Shown: one piece after another, positions 5,513-60,882 of the stretch
How the letters are laid out: every line of letters starts with the position of its first letter
Numbering within the stretch: position 1 is the stretch's first letter
NCBI GenBank assembly: GCA_009733575.1
Contig: ML769591.1
Location: forward strand, 9,920 to 73,919
Source of the DNA: Gymnopus androsaceus JB14
Lineage: Eukaryota > Basidiomycota > Agaricomycetes > Agaricales > Omphalotaceae
Direction: 5' to 3'
DNA: 64,000 nt
Program-made: the position numbers and the translations under genes
Notes under the pieces: model-generated
Databases searched by the model: none
Seen by the model: the letters and a program-made list of their open reading frames with translations, nothing else
What the model was told of the DNA's origin: nothing

Positions 5513-7516
5513 ATGGCCTCCAGCTCTAGGAGGACTTCCCTTTCAACTCCTCACCAAAACGGTTCGAATGTTCGCATAATCGTTCCGGGGGGAAATGCTG
5601 CAGCTCCTTCTCGAACTACCAGACACACCAGGCGAAACCAATCCAACGCGGAGTCGACTGGCCTGAGATCAGTGCCAGAAGAGGACGACGACGACGACGA
5701 CATTGACAGGGATGCAGATGCAGACGCAGCCGGACGACGAGAGAATGACGACGAAGATGTCGATGAGGACAATGATGAGGAAGGGCAGAACGGAGAAAGT
5801 CAGGAGAGGGTTCAAGAAGACGAGGAACCTAGTTCCGGATCTTCTTCTACTCGACACCAGCCACATCCAGAACACTCTTCCCAACAACGCTCTACCTCTC
5901 GCCAGCAGGATCCGGTGCAGCAGGCAGAACACCAAAACCCTCTCTACGCTCTAGTGACACCATTCGGAACGTCGCACCAGAACAGAACTCTAGAGAGGGC
6001 GCAGACTAGCAGATTCCAGGGTACATGTCCTCTCTTTCATGAGATACATACCCCATAGCTGACACGCAGACTCGCAGACACCTCCGTTCAGAGACGCACA
6101 CTACCATACTCAGAACAGCTTCGTAGCATACGAAGCAGAGGTAAGCAGACCATGGCAAGAACACCATCAGCTGAGCTGATATGCAGAGCAGCAGCCCCTC
6201 CGTCGAATGTCAACAATGACCACAAAGGTCAACGACAAGAGGATGCAGAAGGTATGCAAACGATTCGCAGCAATTCCAGGGACAACCGTCGAACCCGCAA
6301 ACGGTCTCGTTCACACTCTGCCTCTCGTTCCCGCTCCCCCTCCAGAAGAGGTCGAAAGCGGCATCAGACTCATCACCACAGACGAGATGCTAGCAGCTCA
6401 CACTCCTCTCGCGGACGTTCCATGTCATACGACAACTCCCAAAAACGCACCCAGAGGAGAAATGACCATAGGTCCCGCTCACGATCCCCCAACTACGAAC
6501 GCAGATGGGGCAGACGCAGGCGCTCTTCGCAATCCCGCTCTCGCTCCAGACGTCGCCGCTCACCGCGCAGCCACCGCTACAGAAGACGATACTCTCGATC
6601 GTCCTCCCGTTCAAGTTCTCGTTCCCGCTCCCAGTCACGATCACATTCCCGATCCAGGACCAAGAGGAGCAGGAAACTGGTAGATCCTCGCTACCAGAAA
6701 GAGAATGTACCAGTATCGAAAACAGTCAAAGTCATCCCGGAAGTCATAGAGGCGCTCTGGAGCGGCTGGCAACGGCACATTTCCATTGGTTTCTTCCTTC
6801 CCCGTCTGGTGACGAGCGGTGGAAAGCTGGGGAACAAGAGGAAAGAGCTGGGGTACTTTGATCTTGAGAACATATCCTCAGAGGACTTTGCAGACATCGG
6901 CAAGACAATGCCGAAAGCCTTCGAGGAGCACCTGGTACCGCCTGGTAAATCCTACGTGGGCTCGAGCCAAGCCCTAGCGATTGCAGATGCCATTCGTCGG
7001 ACCTTCAGGATGGTTCAACGCAGAGACAACTTCCATGATTACTTTGCAGTATACCGTGAGTACACAGATGTAGTACTCCGCGAATGGTATTCCAACACAG
7101 AACAGGAGGGTTCGCCATTTGTCTTTGACGAATCTCGTTGGTCACTCATCTGGAGAAAGCACGTCTCCCCGCCGCCGTCGCAAGTAAGGGACAAACCTTC
7201 GGCCCCGCAGCTCGCAAACAGCAAAAAGCCCACCAAACCCTTTCGTGACCTCAAAAACACACCAACTCAGTCTGCAGCCTCCACGAATGGATGCATCCTC
7301 TGTGCCGAACCACATTCCACTGTCGAACACACCTCCAAACCCAATGATCTCCTCCACAGATCCGCCGACAACAAGAGCTGGGTTACAAAGGATGGCACCA
7401 CCATCTGCCTCAACTTCAACAAGTCCGTGGGCTGCACCCGCTCCCCATGCCGATACCTCCATCTCTGTGGAGTATGTGGCGTCTCCGACCACGGCTCCCA
7501 ATACCACCACAAGTGA
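5513..7516 (+). CDS. Gag-like protein of the YR retrotransposon (SR-rich, zinc-knuckle-like end)
   Basis: Two open frames, 5513-6058 and 6152-7516, join in phase if a 57-nt intron 6021-6077 (GTACAT...CGCAG) is removed, giving 648 residues; without splicing the second frame has its own ATG at 6152. The N-terminal 180 residues are acidic and low-complexity. The middle is an Arg/Ser-dipeptide domain like those of SR splicing factors, then a folded-looking region around EVIEALWSGWQRHISIGFF. The C-terminus carries Cys/His clusters (CILCAEPHSTVEH; CTRSPCRYLHLCGVC) that fit nucleic-acid binding by a Gag protein. Its end overlaps the RT frame by 272 nt in another frame. Whether it is spliced is inference. 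Confidence 0.7.
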
Positions 7517-9245
7517 ATTCCCCTTGGGCTCCACGCGACTGAAACCAGAAGCGTGGACTCAACTTCTGTCAGAGACAGGTGGTCTCGAGAAGTTTTCGAA
7601 GGTTCCGAAAGGCCTTCGCGAGGGGTTTCTCATTGGGGTTGAAGGGTACGAACTCACGCAGAGTTTCGTTCCACGAAACCACTTCCGTTCAGAGGCAGAC
7701 GCAGAGATTGTTCGCACGAAGATGCAGGAGGAGATTGTTCTCGGACGAGTCTCCCCTGGCATGACCATTGAAGAAGCTGAAGCGACGCTAGGTCCAATCC
7801 GCACAGCACCAATGGCAGTTGTGGAGCAAAAGCCAGGCAAATTCCGAATCGTCATTGACCATTCGTACCCCAAACCAAATCACATCCTATCCACTACAGA
7901 AACTCCATCCGCGTCACCTCCTGCAGAGCAACCATCGCCTATAGATCCTTCCCATATTTCCATCAACTCCCTCATTGACTCGGATGATTACCCTTGCGAC
8001 TGGGGCACCTTCTCCGACTGTTATCTTCTCATTGCAGATGCTCCCGAAGGAACCCAAGTATCTGTTTTTGATGTCGAATCTGCTTTCCGCAACATCCCTC
8101 TCCATCCATCAGTATGGAAATTTGTCTGTCTTCTGATAGATGGCAAAATCCACCGAGATCTCATGCTGAACTTTGGGGAGCGCTCGGCGCCTGGTATATG
8201 GGGCCATGTAGCAGATGCCATGGCCTGGATCCTTAAGCACCAAGGAGTCGAGGCTCTACTGAAATGGGTTGATGATTTCATTTTCTTCCGCTACCCGAAA
8301 TCCAAGAACGCTGATGGATCCTTCGTCTACTCCTATGATGAATCTCTCATCTGGGACACAGCAGAAATTCTGGGCTGGCCCTGGGCTCCCAAGAAATTCA
8401 TCCCCTTTGCATCCTTTTTTGACTACATCGGCTTCCTGTGGAAGATTGACCTCAAAATGGTCGAACTCCCACAAGCGAAAAGGTTGAAATACCTTTTTAA
8501 AGTCTCCGGCTGGATCATGAATGAGACTCGCAGCTTGAACGAAGCGGAGAACCTAGCAGGCACCCTGAACCACGTGTGTCTGGTGGTCCCAGAGGGACGC
8601 TCCCGCCTCATCCATCTCAACCGGTTTAAATCAGGATTCAAGGAGCCTGAAAATTCCCTCATCCGCCACAAGATCTTCGATGTCCTCCGGGAGGACCTGA
8701 TCTGGTGGTTCTACAAGCTGCAGCAGAAGTTTGTGGGAATGACCATTGCTCGACCACCGGAACTCTCGGACGCGATCATTTACGTTGATGCATCCACAGT
8801 CTGGGGCATCGGACTAATCGTCAATGGCCGCTGGCTGGCATGGGAGTTCAAGGAGGGTTGGCATGATGATCAGGGCCGACACATTGGATGGGCGGAGATG
8901 GTAGCTATTGAGCTTGCTCTACGTACGCTCATAGCCTCTGGCTATTCCAAAGTAACGGTCGTCATCCACTCCGACAATGAGGGTGTCGTTGGTGCTCTTC
9001 GCAATGGCAACTCTCGTGGCCCCCAGCAGAACCTAATCCTCAGGAAAATCATCGAACTAATGCAAAAGCACAACATATGGGTAGAGCCAAGATGGGTTTC
9101 AACAAAGGAGAATCCAGCAGATGACCCTTCGAGAGGGAAATTCCCGCCGCGCAACCTACTACACCCAAATCCGCCCGCAGTCCCTTCTCACCTAAAGCCA
9201 TATGTTAATCATTCTGTATCATTTCATGATGAACGACTAAACTAA
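7245..9245 (+). CDS. Reverse transcriptase-RNase H of the YR retrotransposon
   Basis: 666 residues. RT motifs are visible in order: the VFDVESAFRNIPLHP block (motif A aspartate) and the catalytic KWVDDFIFF (VDD in place of the usual YxDD). The C-terminal RNase H domain has IIYVDAS, a glutamate in WAEMVAIELAL, VIHSDNEG and a late DDP. The first 90 residues are Pro/Ser-rich and overlap the gag end in the +1 frame relative to gag, so expression may need a +1 shift or internal initiation. No protease is present. It would copy the element RNA in particles before recombination by the downstream YR protein. Confidence 0.9.
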   Translation: MTSKTHQLSLQPPRMDASSVPNHIPLSNTPPNPMISSTDPPTTRAGLQRMAPPSASTSTSPWAAPAPHADTSISVEYVASPTTAPNTTTSEFPLGSTRLKPEAWTQLLSETGGLEKFSKVPKGLREGFLIGVEGYELTQSFVPRNHFRSEADAEIVRTKMQEEIVLGRVSPGMTIEEAEATLGPIRTAPMAVVEQKPGKFRIVIDHSYPKPNHILSTTETPSASPPAEQPSPIDPSHISINSLIDSDDYPCDWGTFSDCYLLIADAPEGTQVSVFDVESAFRNIPLHPSVWKFVCLLIDGKIHRDLMLNFGERSAPGIWGHVADAMAWILKHQGVEALLKWVDDFIFFRYPKSKNADGSFVYSYDESLIWDTAEILGWPWAPKKFIPFASFFDYIGFLWKIDLKMVELPQAKRLKYLFKVSGWIMNETRSLNEAENLAGTLNHVCLVVPEGRSRLIHLNRFKSGFKEPENSLIRHKIFDVLREDLIWWFYKLQQKFVGMTIARPPELSDAIIYVDASTVWGIGLIVNGRWLAWEFKEGWHDDQGRHIGWAEMVAIELALRTLIASGYSKVTVVIHSDNEGVVGALRNGNSRGPQQNLILRKIIELMQKHNIWVEPRWVSTKENPADDPSRGKFPPRNLLHPNPPAVPSHLKPYVNHSVSFHDERLN

Positions 9246-9249
9246 ACTA

Positions 9250-10473
9250 ATGTATAAACTGTACTGTAAAGAGATACCTATATGTATGAATCATATTAGC
9301 TGCATGCAGATGCCGAAATCAATAGTAGCACCTGAAGCTATGTTCTTCTTCCTGTGCCACCATCTGAACCGCTTCCTCCAAAGCATCAGGATGCCACCAT
9401 CTCGCACCCAGAACTCCCCACACACCAGGAAATCAGGGCCTCCAACAAGCTCTCTCTCCTCTGAAGCCGAAAATCTTCTTGCGGGCTCAGTGCAAGCACA
9501 AACAAGGCTCAGGAAGACCCGAAACGTACTAGACTTCCTAGACTGGGCCTATTTGGAAGGACTCGGTGAAGCTGAGGTACTTCCTGCATCAGAGGACCTT
9601 CTCTGCAACTATGCAGCAACCTTTGCAGGCAGGGTGTCAGGACAGACGGCGAGAACAAAATTCTCAGCGCTGAAGGAATGGACAGTGGAAAAAGGGAAGA
9701 GCTGGCATGGAGGAGACCGTTTGCGAAGGGTCCTGAAAGGCGTCGAGCGCAAGGCTCCCATTTCCTCTACTCATCCGGAACGACCTCCCGTGAAGGTTGA
9801 CCATCTCAGGATCCTTCACAATGAACTAGACAAATCCAAAGGTCTAGATTCCGCCATCCTCGCAGCCGCAGACACCATGCTGTATGGCCAGATCCGGGCA
9901 GGGGAAGTTCTTCCAACAAATTCCTCCATCCAGAAATACCGCACAGACATCATGCCTACCGTAGCCGATCTCAGTCCCTCGAACAACGCTGGTTCCAAAA
10001 ACCTGAGACTGCCTAAGACAAAAACGGAGCCAGTACGTGGCCACACAGTACTTGTCCCATTCCAGGAAGGAGTTACAAACCCAGTCAGCTCTTTGGACAA
10101 CCACATCCTTCGAAATCAGCTCGCTCCTCATGATCCCCTTTTCACCTATCGCGATATAAAGGGTCAGAAGCGAACTCTGACGAAGAAACTTTTCCTTCGC
10201 CGAGTCAACGAGATTCTGAGCAGACATGGTGTGTACCACATCACCGGTCACTGCTTTCGCATCGGAGGGACCACATTCTACCTCCTCTCGGGCATAAACC
10301 CAGACGTAGTCAAAGTATTTGGACGATGGAAATCCTGCGCTTTCCTAAAATATTGGAGGAATCTTGAATCCCTTGCATCCCTACACCTTCACGCTTACCA
10401 CACACAACGAGCATACTTTGCCAACCTCGAGACAGAGCAACGCCAGTCCCTCAGTCGCCAACGCCGCAGCTAA
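9250..10473 (+). CDS. Tyrosine recombinase (integrase) of the YR retrotransposon
   Basis: 407 residues, starting 4 nt after the RT stop. The catalytic set of a tyrosine recombinase can be picked out: an Arg in LYGQIRAGEVLP, the H-x-x-R box in ITGHCFRIGG, the Trp in VFGRWKS, and the candidate nucleophile Tyr in FLKYWRN. Such enzymes integrate a circular double-stranded DNA copy without target duplication, which fits the repeat structure of this element. Box-to-box spacing looks complete and the frame is open. It could also be called Crypton-like on the domain alone, but the linked RT and split repeats argue for Ngaro/PAT. Confidence 0.88.
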   Translation: MYKLYCKEIPICMNHISCMQMPKSIVAPEAMFFFLCHHLNRFLQSIRMPPSRTQNSPHTRKSGPPTSSLSSEAENLLAGSVQAQTRLRKTRNVLDFLDWAYLEGLGEAEVLPASEDLLCNYAATFAGRVSGQTARTKFSALKEWTVEKGKSWHGGDRLRRVLKGVERKAPISSTHPERPPVKVDHLRILHNELDKSKGLDSAILAAADTMLYGQIRAGEVLPTNSSIQKYRTDIMPTVADLSPSNNAGSKNLRLPKTKTEPVRGHTVLVPFQEGVTNPVSSLDNHILRNQLAPHDPLFTYRDIKGQKRTLTKKLFLRRVNEILSRHGVYHITGHCFRIGGTTFYLLSGINPDVVKVFGRWKSCAFLKYWRNLESLASLHLHAYHTQRAYFANLETEQRQSLSRQRRS

Positions 10474-41308: not shown

Positions 41309-43124
41309 TTATGATGGTAGTATACCACTGGTCGCCTCTCCATAGAGCTCTGCAGCACACCTTAAACCTGCCTCAAATGCTCCTTGAATCCACCCATGCG
41401 TATAGCTGGCCTGCTCCCCTGCAAAGAATACCCTCTTATCCCACTCAGCCCTACACATGTCTTCTAAGAACATGCTTTTCTGCATCGGCGCGAAATAGGT
41501 GAATGCGCTCCCACCAGCCAACTCATCGGAGGGAAAGACCTGCGCTGCACTTGCTTCCAACAACGGGAGGGAGTTAGCATCGCCAAATATGGTGTCGAGG
41601 TCCCTGGCGGCTTGGAGGGCGCGATTGGCGGGTGACATAGAGCCTAGGATCGTGGCATCTTGCTCAAAGGTGTAGGCGGCCATGACGACGCCTCGGTCAC
41701 TGGCTCTCGCCATGTCGGAGTCAGCCTCTCTGGGAAACATGGTGTAGCGGATGGGGAGATCGGTTACGACGCCGCCATCCGTACCTTGGCCTTCCTTCTC
41801 AAATTCTTTCTTCCACCAACGCTCGCGGTACTGAAGGAGGACTTTGGTCACTTCAACGTAGCGCACCGTCCTAATAGCCAACTCCTTGAGGGGTGAGAAT
41901 GGCTTTGAACGAGTGATGACGCGGAGAGCTGTATAAGGGATGGCGATGATTAACCAGTCGCCCACGACGCTCCGCTGCCCTGCTTGCGTATCGTAAGTGA
42001 GCTTGATAGAGGACCGCGAGTCACTCGTAACCCCGTCAGATGTCTCCTCGATATGCGTCACTCGCGCACCAAAGCGAATCTTGTCAATGAGGGTGTTTGT
42101 ATCGATGGTGCGATCACGGATGAAGCATAAGGGAAGGGTGTCCATTCCCCCCTGAAGTTGCTGCATCTTTGCACTTTCACCACCTTGGTTACTCGAGAGG
42201 AAGCTGTCCTTCCAAGACTCGATGAAACCATTTTCAAAGACAACGTGCGCGTTTCCTAGGTCATAAAGGTTGATAGCATCGGGGGACCACCTCGCGAAAT
42301 CGGATAGGAAAGTTCGGAGGGTGTATTTGTCGAATGCCTGTGTGACCTCTTTGTATGCTGTGGCGAGATTTTTTGGGTTATCCTGGTAGTACTTTGCGAA
42401 TAACTCATAAACAGGCGCCACCGCTTCATCCCACAGATCATCGCAGGTCTTCCCTTTCTCCTCCTCTCGTAAGCCAGGGAAGAGTGCGAGTAACGTGGGG
42501 TCTCGACTCTTCAACATCTGGTTGAACTGGGCATACGTCAGTGTCTTGCCCAACCCCCTCAAGTAAATGAACTTGTTCTCCATCTCGAATGGGAAAAGGG
42601 GGAGACCAAATTTGTTAATATAGCCCATAGTGAGGAAGTGGTTACTGGGGATTCGCATTGCTCCACCCTCGCCGTGCAGGCCTGGTGCAAAGATGGGATC
42701 GCGGAAGGTCTTAACGCGACCGCCAACGCGAGAGGAAGCTTCAAGGATTTCAACCTCAAATCCTGACTTGTTGAGCTCATAGCCCGCACAAAGACCAGAG
42801 GTACCTGCGCCTATAATGAGAACCTAAACATTTTTACTTTACTCTAGATTGCACCCATATAGCTTGACATCAACTAACCTTCTTGCGTCGTTCAGGTTTC
42901 TTATCGCCTAAACCGTATACAATGTAACTGGAGTAGCCTTTGAGTATGTCTGATTCATCTGGGATGATTGGACTGTAAATCTCTGAATCTTCTGTGGTAT
43001 TAGCTGGAGGAAGAGAGGAGATCTTCTTTAGGAAATGATAGGCAAGTGGACCCATCGATCCATAAGCAATGTCGTTTGCATAGTATGCGAGACCATCGCC
43101 GGAGCTGGGTACTGGGATAGACAT
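41309..43124 (-). CDS. Flavin amine oxidase, L-amino-acid-oxidase type
   Basis: Would oxidise L-amino acids to oxo-acids with release of H2O2 and ammonia, as known for Agaricomycete L-amino-acid oxidases used in nitrogen mobilisation and defence. Exon 1 (from 43124) encodes about 85 residues with no clear signal peptide. After an intron at about 42,880-42,826 comes the FAD motif VLIIGAGTSGLCAGYELNKS with the following GGRVKTFRDP. Substrate-side blocks include GLHGEGGAMRIPSNH and, late, FFAGEQASYTHGWIQGAFEA, the FAD-closing motif of the family. About 600 residues, complete, no frame damage. A monoamine-oxidase-like specificity is the alternative. A TATA-like site lies 90 bp upstream. Confidence 0.9.
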
Positions 43125-52626: not shown

Positions 52627-53186
52627 ATGAAGTACCTATCCGGTGCTGCTGCTCTCCTAGTTTTATTGCTTTCGATTGCGGGTGGACTAGCTGCGCCTGT
52701 TGCTATTATTCCTGCCCTTCTTCCTCTTACGGAAGCGTGAGTAGCAGCGTCGATTCATCAGAATCTCAAAACTCAAAATTTTTGGTTCAAACTTTTAGTG
52801 AGCGTGCTATCGGAGGACGAGGCGATCCTGAAAGCTCAAACTGGCCTCCTTCTTGGCGCCGAGCTTCTGAGGATAAGGTCCTTCGCGGAGATCCAGAAAG
52901 CTCAAACTGGCCCCCCTCGTGGAAACGTACTGAAGTTCTGGGACGTGGTGATCCAGAAAGTTCAAACTGGCCCCCCTCATGGAAACGTGCGGTTCTTGAA
53001 CGTGGCGATCCAGAAAGCTCAAACTGGCCCCCTTCATGGAAACGTACGGTTCTTGAACGTGGCGATCCAGAAAGCTCGAACTGGCCTCCTTCATGGTTGA
53101 AATTGCCGAGTGATACGACGGGAGCGGCGGGAGAAAGACGCGGAGATCCGGAGAGTTCGAATTGGCCTCCTTCTTGGAAGGCATAA
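52627..53186 (+). CDS. Secreted repeat protein with Kex2-type sites (peptide/RiPP precursor candidate)
   Basis: Exons 52627-52736 and 52799-53186 join in phase to 165 residues. The first about 23 are a signal peptide (MKYLSGAAALLVLLLSIAGG, then LAAP). After a short pro-region come six copies of GDPESSNWPPSW, each preceded by Arg. The copies are followed by RR, KR, KR, KR, LK and KA, and spaced by short variable linkers (TEVLG, AVLE, TVLE, and longer first and last ones). Dibasic sites after the core fit cleavage by the Golgi protease Kex2, as in fungal KEP proteins and dikaritin-type RiPP precursors. No Cys, Tyr or CAAX end, so it is not a basidiomycete mating pheromone. No UstYa-like gene is visible nearby; a FunK1 fragment follows and an OPT transporter lies 7.7 kb downstream. 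Confidence 0.85.
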
Positions 53187-53768
53187 GATGATATCATGTT
53201 GATGGATGGATGGTATGTCGATAGCACTGATTTTTTGCGACATACACTGATTTTTGTTGATGATCAGACTTGCATCCTTTGGGTTTGACTGATGCTGACT
53301 GATGCGGACAGTAAGGAAACTATTACCTACTATCGAGAGTTATTTGTTTCTATGCACTTTCTCGCTATCCTAATAACCAGTGTCAAAAGCCGGGGATCGC
53401 GTTTGAGCAAATTAATATTCAAGTGCTGACGATAGTGACAACCATTATGCAAAAAAATGAATAAAGAAATTTATTCATTTATTCCGAGTAAAATGCAAGC
53501 TAGTACAAGAACATCAAAAAAATCATACATATAGGGTTAGATATAGTAAGGACGTAAATGGTCATCTGGTTAGAACAAGTACATGTAGCACAAGATATCA
53601 ACGGCTCGCCAAGGCCCAATACAATGGCTTTCCGAGCAAGTTCGGGGAAGCGTTGGGAAGTGCTCACGGAGAAGTTGTAAGCGGGAACGACGGTCAAATT
53701 GGCTAGATTGTCTAAAGTTCACGGAGGCATTGAGAGAGTAGAAACGATGGTGGAGACATGGTATTCTG
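53187..53768. other. Downstream of the repeat-peptide gene
   Basis: The first about 120 bp (to about 53,300) reappear, decayed, after the repeat relic at 58,584. The rest is unassigned; a minus frame at 53,500-53,697 continues toward the minisatellite. Confidence 0.4.
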
Positions 53769-54147
53769 ACCACTGCAGCTCACTGCAGACGTTGGGAATG
53801 TTGCGGTCAGACCACCGGACATTCGGAACGATGTTGTTCGGGCCACTGGAGATGTCTGGGACGATGCTGGTTAGACTACCAGAGACGTCGGCGATAGGAA
53901 CAGTCAGACCACTAAAGACGACGGAATGGTGTTGTTCAGAACGCAGAGACGTTGGGAGCGAGAGTTTACTCAAACCACGCGTTCAGCCACTAAAGACGAC
54001 GGGAATGGTGTTGTTCAGACCGCCAGAGACGTTGGGAGCGAGAGTTTACTCAAACCACCGCGTTCAGCCACTAAAGACGACGGGAATGGTGTTGTTCAGA
54101 CCGCCAGAGACGTGGGAGCGAGAGTTTACTCAAACCACCGCGTTCAG
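53769..54147. repeat. Two-level minisatellite (about 80-bp unit, three copies)
   Basis: Copies at 53,909-53,986, 53,987-54,067 and 54,068-54,147 are nearly identical (each begins CCACTAAAGACGACGG). To the left, 53,769-53,908 contains looser 30-36 bp units of the same words (CAGACCAC, GAGACGT, GGGACGATG), so the long unit seems to have grown from a shorter one. Read on the minus strand it gives a repetitive Ser/Gly/Pro/Val frame broken by stops. Confidence 0.85.
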
Positions 54148-54255
54148 GGCTCTCCGGTAGAAGCTGAAAGATGATAAAATGAGATTTTGGTTAGACAAGT
54201 TCAGCGGAGGACTGAGACAAGCCTGAGGGCGATGGTACATCGATATATAATAATT

Positions 54256-54508
54256 GACAAAAAGTATGTTTTCCTTCATCAATACTCTTGGATTGCGACT
54301 CCCCGACCTTTCTTTGCTGCCTTTCGATATTGGCTGCAGACAATTCGAGACTCTTTGATGACTGGTTTTCTGTAGTGCGGGGAAGGCTCGTGCTGGGCAG
54401 ATGACCTTTGACTTGGAAACCTTGGGTTATAACTTTTCTTACAAGACGATGTTTAGAGTCAGGCGCAATTTCAACGAGGGGGCGCATGTAACGAGGAATC
54501 CGAAGTAG
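54256..54508 (+). pseudogene. FunK1 kinase C-terminal fragment (copy C)
   Basis: Starts at the codons for KKYVFLHQYSWIATPRPFFA, almost identical to 59,965-60,020 of copy B, and continues to the shared end TRNPK-stop at 54,506-54,508. A frameshift and small deletion after DSLMTGFL (about 54,372) break it. Its downstream flank also resembles that of the other copies. Only the last 80 or so codons of a kinase are present, without catalytic motifs. Confidence 0.85.
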
Positions 54509-54942
54509 CAGTCGATGGCTTTCTTGCCCGCTCTCTCTACCGTTACTTATAGTATTAGTACTACTTAGATCTAACTTATCTGTTTGTATACCTAGTCTAT
54601 GCTTTCGATCTACTTTGGGTACGCCTGTATTTTTGAAGTTTTACTTATTATGTGACTACGGGTAACGCAACTTGGACAGTATCAGTCGACTATTTATGGG
54701 ATACCATACGTTCACACTGATCCTGTCAAAGCTGATCATGATAACCACAGGCAAAGAGATTTGGGAGGCCGTGTAACGGATGCATCGACGAAGATTTACG
54801 AAAAGGGAAAACAATGGGCACAAACGGCGATGAAGATTTACGAATAGGGAGAATAATGGGTATTATCATGAATGACAGAAATGAATCCTTTGTCCTTATC
54901 CACATGTGACTGGGAAAGATGGTTGGATCAAGGCGTGTAGCT

Positions 54943-55003: not shown

Positions 55004-58000
55004 ATGACTTCTACGGACATAGCTAGCCTGTTCGCTGAGCTTCCTGAGAATCGTAAACGCGAGGGAACACCCCCAATCGACAACGTTGACAATAATGCGC
55101 AACCACGCAGCGAGGTTGAAAGCACTCCCAATAGTCAACATAACGCTAGTTACTCCTCCGCTATCACCTACGGTATAAAACCAAAGACGAGGGTGGAGGA
55201 TGCCAACTTGCACCTTCGAGGCGATCTCGAGAGCATGCGAACCCTCCCGGCAAAGGAGTGGGCCTTGACCATCTTCGGAGAGGTCCCAGCGAAGGATGTT
55301 AGTACCATCTCGGAGGAAGTCGAGGCCAAGTTGAACCGATATCTGGACCAGACCAATCGCCAATGCAAGGAACCAGAGTTGTACCCTTCTCTCGTCGCCC
55401 TGCTCAATAAAATTGGCTCAGACGGCAGCGATAAAGTCTTTTACACCCAGGATCCAGTCCCGGTGCGAGGATCGTTTGTATCACAGAAACCCGACATTGG
55501 CATGCTTTTCAAAGCCCTTGCCGTCGACGAGAATAATATGCTAAAAATCCTATCAGCCAAGCAGAAGAAAATGGGACGCGTGTTCTATGCGCTGTTGTTG
55601 GCCATCGTTGAAGCCAAGCATAGGAAAGGTGAATTGTTGGGAGCGAAATACAAACGTGAGTCCAGTTTTTTCTTGGGTTCAACCTAATATATCGAGTAAC
55701 CGTTTGCTGTAGCCAATCCTATTCAGGCATCCAAGGAACCAAGACAAACTATGAGCAAAAGACGAAGACGTGACGAGGACCCGGATGAACTTGGTATGCG
55801 ATCTATGCTGCGTATTTTTCTTTACTCATTTGATCATGTAGTCAACGAGCACTCAAATGCCGAAGCTGGCCCGTCAAAGAGAACTAGACGGTCCAGAAAC
55901 ATCCAATCACTAGATGACGATGACGATAGTGAGTGTATTCTCCCTAAATGTTACTCAGTATTCCTATTTATCTATGCAGTCAATATGCGCTCACAGCACG
56001 ACGATGATTTTCAAAAGGCGAGCAAGGGGAAAAGGCCTTCTCGGAATCTCGGTAAGGAAATTTATTATTTATATGGCTCGTCAGAACTAATACTCACTTG
56101 GATCGAAGGTAATACACGCGGGAGACAACAGGAGCCTGCACTCGACTCCATTGGTGAACACGATAATGAGCCAATCGTTGAATCGTATGACTCCTCCGAG
56201 CCAGAATTGTATCAGTCCTCTGAGCCGCAGTCCTCTGAGCCACAGTCTTTTGCTGAAGCATCCGGGTCCTCCGTCCATTCCACGAAACCTCCCTCTTCCG
56301 AATCGGAAGGGTCGAATAATGACGAAGGACTCGGATTGGAGGCCGGGGTCGTCGGCGGAGTCGTTGGAATCCCCTCCAGCTTCCCGTCGTTCCATTTCTT
56401 CCTGTAAAGCAATTTCAGATGGATAATGAAGAGAACCGTTCGCCTCAGCCACTCACTCCTCAAGCTTTTAGATATCAAGTCGCGGGGTATGCTCGGGATA
56501 TTCTCTCGTATGGCGTAATCAGATCTCACGTCATCACGTTGATGATTGACGACGCGAAAGTGATCTTTGTTTATTACGACCACAGTCTCATCGTTGAATC
56601 CGAGGTGAGGTCGTTCTTATCTCTATAACTGCTCAATGTTAACTATTAGTTTAGGTGCTCGATCTTCAAGACTCAGAGCAGAAGCTACTCTTTGTCAAGA
56701 TGATCAAACAAATGCATGCCCTCTCACCGGAGGCCCTCGGAATTATTCCCAATCTGCAGGCGCCGTTCATGTACGACCCCAAACAGCTCAAGAATCCAGG
56801 ATTATATCTCGAACCCGCTGCTAAAGAAGGAACGATTCCGTCCCACAAAGTCCTCGTGGGCTGCCTCCTTACGGTCGACTATAATACAAAGACGCGGCAA
56901 GGGCAACGCACTGTTCGACTAGGAAAAGTACTTTTTTGCTCCAACGGTATCAACGGTCGAGGAACCAAAGTTATTAGAGTGACTTGCAGCTGCAAGGACG
57001 GCGACTGCGCCTGGAAAGGAAAGGACGGCGAATGCGACTGGAAAGGCCTGAAGCTGGTTATGAAAATCAGCGTCCCGTCAAGGGACGCGTCCCTGAACAC
57101 GAAACTATCCAGCGCTGCACCGATATGGCCGTGGATGAGCATGCGTGGGTCTTGAAGCACCTCCCCAATGTACTCGGATGGTTCATCACGGATGGCGGCG
57201 CACTGCAGGTCAGGTTGAAGCTCATGTTTGGCGCTGACTACGACGAGCGTCTTATATGTGGCTCAATTCAGGAGGAGCTTTGTCCAATCATGGACTTGGA
57301 GTCGCAAGAGCAGTTTGCTCAAGTCATGTACGATGTCCTACAATGTGAGTCACACGTTCTTTTATCTCTGCTTCGTCGCTAATATCACTCCCCAAAGGCC
57401 ACGAGTGGGTCTATACTCATCCACGAGTTCTTCATCGCGACATTAGCCAGGCCAACATCATGTTTCGTCGTGACGCAACGAAAAAAATCTATGGGGTGTT
57501 GAATGACTATGACCTCGCTGCCTTGGTCGATGAACGCCATGCTCCTACATCTGGTCATCGAACCGGTACAAAACCGTACATGGCTCACGAGCAACAGCGC
57601 ACTGGCTGGACAGGTCCTCTATTTTACCGCCATGACTTGGAATCTTTGTTCTATGTCATCCTCTTGCTAGTCTATCACTATCAACGTCCCGGCGTCAAGG
57701 CTGAAAAGCTTGAATTCGTCAAATGGTTTACTGAGGGCGATGATTTTATATATAAGGAAAAGTCTAATTTACTCAGGGTAGTAGACTTCTCTTGGATCGC
57801 CGCTCCCCAGCCCTTCTTTGGCGCCTTTCGATATTGGCTGCAGACAATTCGAGACTCATTAGTGGATGGTTTTTCGGATCAAGGTTTAGCTTTGAGGAAG
57901 GCGCGAGTTGGGGGGCAGATCTCCTTTGACTTGGAAACCTTGGGGGACAACTTTTCCTACAAAACTATGTCTGCGGTGATGCGGAATTTCGACGGGAAAG

Positions 58001-58026
58001 AGCTTGTAACGAGGAATCCGAAGTAG
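55004..58026 (+). CDS. FunK1-type protein kinase (copy A), full length with one frame break
   Basis: FunK1 kinases are a fungal Ser/Thr-kinase-like family expanded in mushrooms, substrates unknown. N-terminal exons (55004-55687) hold the conserved helical domain (EWALTIFGEVPAKDVSTISE; VPVRGSFVSQKPDIG). Several short exons with acidic, Ser-rich spacers follow to about 56,400. The kinase part begins near 56,419 (AFRYQVAGYARDILSYGV). It contains KEGTIPSHKVLVGCLLTVDY, the catalytic loop VLHRDISQANIMF, GVLNDYDLAALVDE in place of DFG, and TGTKPYMAHEQ. About 57,062-57,075 lacks two bases relative to copy B (ATGAAA-ATCAGC-GTCCC), shifting the frame between KLVMK and RVPEHETI. Otherwise complete to TRNPK. 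Confidence 0.8.
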
Positions 58027-58583
58027 GACGTAGTTTGAACATTGGTTTTCTTGGTTCGTTGTACACTCAAGTCTCGCTCGGCATGTATCAATAGTCTATG
58101 CTTTCGATTCGCTTTCAGTATTCCAATAGTTGTAGTTATTAGTGGTTGACATTGTCGTGAATCGGGATATTATAATTTGAAGCCCTCATGGCTGACCTTC
58201 TCCGTCGCTTGGCCTCGGTCGCTACTCAACTCGCATCATGGCCACTCTAGTTTCCTTTGATTGAGATGGATCGCAAAACGAACTTGTAAATTCTTTCTAG
58301 GCGAGGAACGGACTCGAATTCTCTGAACAGTGCTCAACCTCATCCAAGCCTCGCAGCAAGGTTAAACAGCGTGATCCAAGGAGTATTGCATGGAGCATCA
58401 CCCGCTCGGTCTTACTCAAAATCTCATTTCTACGAGTTCTTCTTGATACAGCATAAGGATATCAACTCAAGCTGGCAAGTTCAATGGTCTAACCCGCGAA
58501 TATTCGTGAAACCACCGGTAAAACCGTAAGTTTACGACGTCGTACTTCTGTATTTACATACTCAGATTAGATTTTTTGTTCAC
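58027..58583. repeat. Downstream flank of copy A, duplicated after copy B
   Basis: 58,100-58,566 resembles 60,280-60,637, for example GTTTACGACGTCGTACTTCT near 58,531 against a near-identical block near 60,600. So the tandem unit included the 3' flank as well as the kinase. Confidence 0.65.
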
Positions 58584-58695
58584 GGAAAGTTCGAACTGGT
58601 CTCCTTCTTGTGAGCATAAGATATCATGTTGATGGGTGGATATGTCAGATTTCAGATTTTTTTTGCGATGTTGACTGATTTTTGTTGATGCGGAA
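58584..58695 (+). pseudogene. Relic of the secreted repeat-peptide gene (3' end)
   Basis: CGGAAAGTTCGAACTGGTCT and the next about 90 bases match the last repeat and 3' flank of the gene at 52,627-53,186 (53,149 onward), including ATATCATGTTGATGG. The core reads ESSNWSPSCE, so Pro and Trp are lost, and no upstream repeats or signal peptide remain. Confidence 0.75.
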
Positions 58696-58867: not shown

Positions 58868-60244
58868 CATTTGTGTGTTATCAGCACTTCGAGACTCAGA
58901 GCAGAAACTCCTTTTATCAAACAAATGCACGCGCTCTCACCAGAGGCCCTCGGATTATTCCCAATCTGCAGGCAAAGTTCATGTACGACTCCAAACAGCT
59001 CGAGAATCCGGGATTGTATCTCGAACAAATTGCTAAAGAGGGAACGATTCCGTCCAACAAAGTCCTCATGGGCTGCCTCTTTACGGTCGACAATAATACA
59101 AACAAACGGCAAGGGAAACGCACTTTTCGAATGGGGGAAGTACTATATTGTTCCAATGGTATCAACGGTCGATGCAGTAAAGTTACTAGAGTAACCTGTG
59201 GCTGCGAGGGAGGCGACTGTGATTGGAGAGGAGAGGACGGCGAATGTGACTGGAAAGGCCTGAAGCTGGTTATGAAACATAGTTGTCCCATCAAAGGACG
59301 TATCCCTGAACACGAAACTATCAAGCGTTGCAGTGCTCTGGCGGTGAATGAGCATGCGTGGGTCCGGAAGCACTTGCCCCATCTGCTCGGATGGTTCGTC
59401 AAGGATTTCGACGGTAACACGGTCCAGAGCAGGGTGAAGGAGAAGTTCGGCGCTGATTACGAAGAGCGTTTTATATGTGGCTCAATCCAGGAGGAGCTTT
59501 GTCCTATCATGGAGTTGGAATCGCCAGAGGAATTTGTTCAAGCCATGTATGACATCCTACAATGTGAGTCAAACTTTATTTTTTCTTCTTTGTCTCTAAT
59601 ATGACTCCCCACGAGTGGATTTACACTTATCCACGGGTTCTTCATCGTGACGTTAGCCAGGCCAACATCATGTTTCGTCGTGACGAAACGAAGAAATCTA
59701 TGGGGTGTTGAATGACTATGACCTCGCTACCTCGTTAGATTATGGACACCACGCTCCTACATCTGGTGAACGAACCGGTACAAAACCTTACATGGCTCAC
59801 GAGCAACAGCGCATTGGCTGGACAGGTCCTCTGCATTACCGCCATGACTTGGAATCCTTGTTCTATGTCATTCTCCTGCTGGTTTATCACTATGACCGTT
59901 TCGGAGTCAAGGCTGAAAAGCTTGAGTTCGGTAAATGGTTTACTGAAGGCGATGAATACCTCTATGACAAAAAGTATGTTTTCCTTCATCAATACTCTTG
60001 GATTGCTACACCCCGACCCTTCTTTGCTGCCTTTCGATATTGGCTGCAGACAATTCAAGACTCTTTGATGGCTGGTTTTCTGGCAGAAGGTTTAGCTTTA
60101 AGAAAGGCTCGAGCTGGGGGGCAGATTTCCTTTGACTTGGAAACCTTGGGGGACAACTTTTCCTACAAAACCATGTCTACGGTGATGCGGAATTTCGATG
60201 GGAAAGCGCTTGTAACGAGAAATCCGAAGTGGCAGGTTGAATGA
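58868..60244 (+). pseudogene. FunK1-type kinase copy B, 5'-truncated and disrupted
   Basis: Begins inside the kinase domain (equivalent to 56,655 of copy A) and keeps the frame in the region where copy A is broken (HSCPIKGRIPEHETIK). Damage: about 10 bases lost near 58,905-58,915; the intron acceptor is lost (about 7 bases near 59,610) so that CHEW cannot be spliced in; and one base is missing in AAGAAATCTATGG (about 59,693) before GVLNDYDL. VLHRDVSQANIMF and TGTKPYMAHEQQRIGWTGPL remain. The whole N-terminal half is absent. DNA identity to copy A is high, so the duplication is fairly recent. Confidence 0.85.
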
Positions 60245-60882
60245 CTTTCTAGCCCGCTCTCTCCACCGTTGTACTCACATTTCGCTATGCCGGTCTCTAT
60301 TCAGTATTCTAGTATTGTACTCATTGGTGGTTAGCGTTGTCGTGAATCGGAGTACTATAATTTGAAGCCCTCATGGTTGACCTTCTCGGTCGCTTCGCCT
60401 CGTCGCTCGATGTGAGATCACGTATCGATCTCATATACTAACATTCTCCAGCTCGCATCCTGACCACTTCAATCGCAAACCAACCTCTCTTCAAATTCTA
60501 GACAAGGGAACAACGTTCAATCTTCAACTTCATCCAAGTTAGAGGTCAAACAGCGTCAAACGGTAGCCCATTGAAAGTCTGTTCGGTGAAACCGAAAGCT
60601 TACGACGTCGTACTTCTGTATTTCATACTCGAATTAAATTGGTTCAGTGGTTATTCATCGTTTTCAATGTTCGATGTTTCTTTGGCAAATTCAACCGTAA
60701 CGCCGCTTTATTAGAAAGCTACTCGCTGGTGAACGCCGCAATCGCATTCTCAAGTAGAAGATCATTTAAACATCATTCTATTTCACCGCCATATTCTAAT
60801 TGTGCCAGCGCTTCAGTTTCAATGCCAGACCTTCGGTCTGTGTAGGTGATCAGCAAGGAAGCTTGATATGCAACACGATAAC
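60245..60882. other. Flank of copy B and spacer to the transporter
   Basis: Up to about 60,637 it matches the flank of copy A. The plus frame 60,639-60,845 has no motif. Confidence 0.4.

Follow-up and report, generated by a model that had tools for sequence, protein, structure and literature searches.

Kex2-processed repeat proteins (KEPs) have been defined by Umemura as proteins with a signal peptide and at least three tandem repeats of at least eight amino acids lying between Kex2 sites (PMC7329392). Their peptides are widespread in fungi and most, including the Trp-ended peptides of mushrooms, have no known function. In Coprinopsis cinerea, DDDPEGPPAPSW and GPPAPSW, which derive from KEP 447393, were detected in culture fluid, while QMRPPSW and QYKAPSW, from KEP 490115, were obtained by expression in Pichia pastoris (PMC9769878). 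The same source describes a C-terminal Trp in many basidiomycete relatives of KEP 490115, the presence in fruiting bodies of Trp-ended peptides from Lentinula KEP 2599 and Pleurotus KEPs, and homologues of KEP 2599 in other Gymnopus species; it also describes the C. cinerea KEP peptides that were tested as not antibacterial (PMC9769878). Le Marquer et al. reported an XSDW motif in Basidiomycota, the mating pheromones of which are of a-type (PMC6339444). Here, we analyzed 64,000 nucleotides of Gymnopus androsaceus JB14 (Agaricales, Omphalotaceae; assembly GCA_009733575.1, contig ML769591.1, positions 9,920 to 73,919 of the forward strand), hereafter the window, and describe a gene at window positions 52627-53186 that very probably encodes a secreted Kex2-processed repeat precursor with six identical cores.

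The gene lies on the + strand in two exons and runs from an ATG at 52627 to a stop codon at 53184-53186 (165 codons), limits that agree with those proposed in an earlier reading of the same DNA (hereafter the original prediction). Exon 1 (52627-52736) holds, as judged from sequence, gene model and hydropathy, the start codon, a hydrophobic N-terminus resembling a signal peptide (residues 1-22) and the beginning of the pro-region; exon 2 (52799-53186), delimited by the gene model and repeat analysis, holds the six repeats and the stop codon. Between them lies a 62-nt GT-AG intron (52737-52798), the single solution giving an open frame among the GT-AG pairs tried, namely those of 40-120 nt with both ends inside 52700-52810. 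That the precursor begins with a signal peptide, as had been proposed, is supported by hydropathy, the sole basis on which we call it: of the 311 ATG-initiated open reading frames in the window with a length of 40 aa or more, only 2 reach the Kyte-Doolittle peak of 2.94 seen here (residues 7-18). Judged by eye, a cut after Ala22 is likely, as positions -3 and -1 carry small residues. With this N-terminus, six 12-residue repeats and KR or RR in all five intervals between cores, the precursor fits the definition of a KEP. A Pfam scan of the precursor returned nothing that we consider real (one match, at E 0.79).

The protein database searched holds a protein of the same assembly (BT96DRAFT_761514, 100% identical over 77% of the protein spliced from contig C121), and the precursor was not found in it among predicted proteins of about 91-289 aa; the gene is therefore apparently unannotated, having apparently been missed by public annotation. 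Since this is so, KEP surveys based on annotation may undercount such genes, and that of Umemura was built on annotated proteins (PMC7329392).

The evidence that carries our reading is the conservation of the core. GDPESSNWPPSW occurs six times in the precursor, the 72 core residues being free of amino-acid differences, and 9 of the 12 core codons vary among copies, those for Asp and the two Trp being fixed; both the identity of the copies as protein and the synonymous variation in most codons had been put forward in the original prediction. The Arg that precedes the core is likewise invariant as a residue (6/6) while its codon drifts between CGA, CGC and CGT. Across the 13-codon block formed by this Arg and the core, 10 codons vary, every variant is synonymous, and in all ten columns concerned the variation falls on the third codon position (hypergeometric P 4.5e-7). 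Copies differ from one another at 2-9 of 39 sites. Comparing synonymous with non-synonymous change between repeats, which had been suggested as a check, gave 85 synonymous and 0 non-synonymous differences over the 15 copy pairs (proportions pS 0.67 and pN 0.00), and for the minimum of 14 substitutions an all-synonymous outcome has a probability between 5e-10 and 3e-9 at kappa values of 1, 2 and 4. The linkers between cores, meanwhile, vary in both length and sequence. This synonymous-only variation supports the view that the peptide is under purifying selection across the repeats, as originally proposed, as opposed to plain copying of a repeat.

Could such a pattern arise without a gene in this frame? 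Long frames are open on both strands, public proteins of about 91-289 aa (as predicted) include no match to the precursor, and one antisense frame conserves 11 of the 12 columns with a pN of 0.02, so that two alternatives have to be weighed, a frame left open by chance across a minisatellite and a gene on the opposite strand. The antisense frame is nearly as conserved because its third positions coincide with those of the sense frame; the codon pattern alone is thus insufficient to assign the strand, which is fixed instead by the start codon, intron, hydrophobic N-terminus and basic sites. The sense frame has an ATG, a GT-AG intron, a hydrophobic N-terminus, KR/RR sites and a stop codon, and its protein is unchanged despite the nucleotide differences between copies, whereas the antisense frame listed begins at a GTG. 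We therefore consider the absence of a gene in this frame extremely unlikely. By all the sequence tests made, the gene appears to be real, to be under strong selection on its core and to belong to a known kind, the KEPs.

We next consider how the precursor would be processed. Cores 1 to 4 (52821-52856, 52887-52922, 52947-52982 and 53004-53039, all on the + strand) are each preceded by a single Arg, within VLR, LGR and LER for copies 2, 3 and 4, respectively, and are followed by RR, KR, KR and KR. Core 5 (53061-53096, +) is also preceded by a single Arg (LER) but is followed by LK, and core 6 (53142-53177, +) is preceded by RR and followed by KA and the stop codon. Trp thus stands directly before a dibasic site in four of the six copies, the others reading W-LK and W-KA-stop. 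The dibasic ends of the original prediction therefore held on the C side in 4/6 copies and on the N side in 1/6, and did not hold for LK, KA and the five single Arg. Cleavage at dibasic sites only would leave ASEDKVLR-, TEVLGR-, AVLER- and TVLER- extensions, the TVLER- form being extended C-terminally as well, whereas additional cleavage at the single Arg would give the 12-mer GDPESSNWPPSW. The calculated monoisotopic mass of the 12-mer is 1357.558 (neutral; [M+H]+ 1358.565), and the calculated [M+H]+ values of forms bearing a linker are 1926.898 for AVLERGDPESSNWPPSW, 1956.909 for TVLERGDPESSNWPPSW and 2013.930 for TEVLGRGDPESSNWPPSW. That the single Arg is kept in 6/6 copies while its codon drifts suggests a probable function, for which cleavage is the simplest candidate. 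Single-Arg cleavage products have been observed for C. cinerea KEPs expressed in P. pastoris (PMC9769878).

The invariance of this Arg would also fit a different proposal, namely that the protein is a structural or adhesive cell-wall repeat protein comparable to Ustilago Rep1, with RGDPESSNWPPSW as its unit, an RGD tripeptide and Kex2 sites that are only partly used. The invariant block is 13 residues long when Arg is included, which makes RGD constant in 6/6 copies, and Rep1, which is processed by Kex2, is itself a KEP and yields peptides that assemble into amyloid-like fibrils (PMC9769878). Against this, the 12-mer is polar and Pro-rich and, by eye, not amyloid-like, and RGD can be explained as a protease Arg that happens to adjoin an acidic peptide. 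We regard a wall-repeat protein as very unlikely.

Candidate processing enzymes are present in the genome, with two P_proprotein matches pointing to Kex2-type enzymes and DPPIV_N matches at one place pointing to a Ste13-type enzyme. None of the five dibasic sites in the precursor is followed by an XA or XP dipeptide typical of STE13 (the next residues are AS, TE, AV, TV and GD), and STE13 trimming is therefore not expected; processing of this kind was ruled out by sequence even though the genome has the DPPIV_N matches.

The original prediction of a Kex2-processed repeat precursor left room for a ribosomally synthesized and post-translationally modified peptide (RiPP), and here its two parts fared differently. 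The fit to the KEP definition upholds the first. For the second, a dikaritin-like cyclic RiPP, Kex2 would free the core and UstYa-type oxidases would then cross-link it. The layout of such a precursor would be the same, and 51 UstYa matches (exons or gene pieces) are listed in the genome, so tailoring genes could sit elsewhere; the search for UstYa (DUF3328) was made exon by exon and its counts are lower bounds. None of the 51 listed matches, however, is on the contig of the precursor (C209, 123,893 bases, with the gene about 60 kb from either end), which led us to reject the clustering of UstYa with the precursor that we had considered, and the core has no Tyr. In addition, the Pfam matches observed within the nearest 10 kb downstream are to fungal kinases and an OPT transporter. 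A cyclic RiPP thus appears unlikely, and a linear peptide likelier, given that the precursor has no STE13 motif and the contig no listed UstYa match.

For a linear secreted KEP peptide, we envisage the following route. The signal peptide would take the precursor into the endoplasmic reticulum, Golgi Kex2-type proteases would cut behind the KR or RR in every linker, and a putative Kex1-type carboxypeptidase would trim away the basic residues, leaving Trp at the C terminus. A cut behind the invariant single Arg would then yield linear GDPESSNWPPSW, together with longer forms such as AVLERGDPESSNWPPSW, and the exported peptide may serve as a linear extracellular signal, either to the fungus itself or to its neighbors.

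Several observations weigh against this reading. The precursor is known here from its sequence alone, and the protein search that had been suggested, run against 5.8 billion proteins, found no homologue at E ≤1 among 4105 candidates, a result that applies to predicted proteins between about 91 and 289 aa in length. The six copies would not all give one peptide, since copy 5 has no dibasic site on its C side and copy 6 ends in WKA. Kex2 cuts poorly at a single Arg that follows G, L or E, the arrangement in 5/6 copies; either processing may require a different protease or the peptide may be released with its linker still attached. As for the role of the peptide, knock-outs of six C. cinerea KEPs are described as having no visible phenotype, and the authors favor a role towards the biotic environment (PMC9769878). 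A self-signal is therefore unsupported by the best-studied case.

A decayed second copy provides a small natural contrast to the unchanged cores, although it is a single case. This remnant (58583-58690, + strand), 5.4 kb downstream of the gene, corresponds to the 3' end of the gene and is 79% identical to 53149-53262. It retains the last nine core codons, reading ESSNWSPSC, of which two are changed in amino acid (Pro to Ser and Trp to Cys), and a one-base gap follows just behind. Among the best candidates scored, the gene itself and this remnant were the only members of the family in the genome; two further protein matches were weak (E 1.1 and 6.8) and were taken as chance, and the third match of the search that yielded the remnant was a repeat within the gene itself. 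Downstream of the gene, a fungal kinase (PF17667, presumably the family known as 'FunK1') is present in tandem copies, some of their sequence decayed, with duplicated blocks at 56664-58223 and 58887-60407, with a shorter related piece at 54255-54544. The remnant sits just before the last of these blocks, which suggests that the precursor gene and the kinase were probably duplicated together.

Other features of the window can be noted in passing. Just downstream of the gene lies a minisatellite (53904-54147) with three copies of a unit of about 80 bp that are 93-96% identical. A match to an OPT oligopeptide transporter (PF03169; 63187-63666, minus strand) lies 10 kb from the gene and may be a coincidence. 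Upstream, at a distance of 10-15 kb, are a flavin amine oxidase and an FMO-like frame; the amine oxidase (41309-42823, minus strand) is an intronless frame of 504 residues whose match spans nearly the full family profile, and an intronless frame of such length is unusual among mushroom genes. Further away, at 6059-10473, are mobile-element-like frames with weak adjoining RNase H-type and tyrosine-recombinase matches, both under the cut-off, in an arrangement that we take to be that of DIRS-type elements.

If the peptide is a signal, what might perceive it? Le Marquer et al. asked which G protein-coupled receptors (GPCRs) perceive basidiomycete KEPs (PMC6339444). G. androsaceus has two genes for Ste2-like seven-helix receptors, L021 (1492-2740; contig C121) and L022 (1441-2670; contig C318), and a weaker third locus, L023, on contig C142. 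For this class, in G. androsaceus and in other mushrooms, the best fold and profile matches are to Ste2, the alpha-factor receptor of yeast, and the predicted folds of L021 and L022 are of the Ste2 type. Profile scores lie on both sides of the PF02116 cut-off of 27.2 bits: in the genome search, the L021 locus scored 29.8 and the other two 20.6 and 17.6, while the first exon of L021 scored 27.4 and the two spliced proteins 17.7 and 16.8. The family comprises 33 database proteins from two overlapping searches (14 and 29 proteins, that of G. androsaceus included), each of which scored the 8000 (7996) candidates with the most words in common, with 26 named mushroom proteins. The alignment covers 26 of the 33, leaving out one protein of 716 aa and six that are short or partial, and 7 of the 26 aligned homologues match STE2 at E 0.01. 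Two recent papers describe the Ste2 class as confined to Ascomycota. PMC3251606 treats Ste2 and Ste3 jointly as receptors of Dikarya; given this treatment and the fact that three database proteins of the family already carry a PF02116 annotation, an earlier mention of Ste2-type receptors in basidiomycetes is possible. We also considered whether the family corresponds to the DUF6534 GPCRs of PMC12842992, and dropped this idea because the matches listed for the members scanned include none to DUF6534. Proteins of the L021 and L022 type are candidate KEP receptors. That they mediate alpha-factor-like signaling outside mating, with Trp-ended KEP peptides such as GDPESSNWPPSW sensed by mushroom Ste2-type receptors and one of L021 and L022 having this gene's peptide as its ligand, is a speculative and improbable proposal. 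The existence of a mushroom Ste2-like family nonetheless makes the question of KEP perception directly testable with synthetic peptides, and the locus merits follow-up on account of a peptide that is simple to make and candidate receptors that are at hand. It also offers a clear example of a peptide kept under strong purifying selection across the repeats of one gene, and an easily synthesized target.

How, then, does the precursor compare with known systems? In open-access main texts, neither the core fragment NWPPSW nor a joint mention of Gymnopus androsaceus and KEX2 was found, and the supplementary KEP lists of three surveys may include the core. Ascomycete alpha-pheromone precursors share with it a signal peptide, a repeated linear peptide, Kex2 sites and short linkers; they differ in their core, and our precursor has no STE13 dipeptides and a basidiomycete host. 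Dikaritins such as ustiloxin and phomopsin likewise derive from a Kex2 repeat precursor, unlike ours in that its contig has no listed UstYa match and its core no Tyr. Closer are the KEPs of mushrooms. Lentinula edodes KEP 2599 (SGTGEASAADW) and the Pleurotus KEPs (SGVAADW) are also mushroom repeat precursors with Trp-ended peptides, although their cores end in -AADW, and not -PPSW, and those of Pleurotus have STE13 motifs. C. cinerea KEP 490115, as here, has a core ending in PPSW or APSW ahead of dibasic sites, yet it carries STE13 XA/XP dipeptides behind the Kex2 site, in contrast to 0/5 here. C. cinerea KEP 447393 shares with our precursor Kex2 sites, an acidic DPE near the N-side, a C-terminal PSW and a 12-residue form. 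Both C. cinerea KEPs were likened to the precursor by eye and from their printed peptides alone, among which DDDPEGPPAPSW and QMRPPSW appear to be the closest to the core. Altogether, the precursor resembles the basidiomycete KEPs with Trp-ended peptides, and we propose that it is a new KEP of the linear, Trp-terminated style without an STE13 motif.
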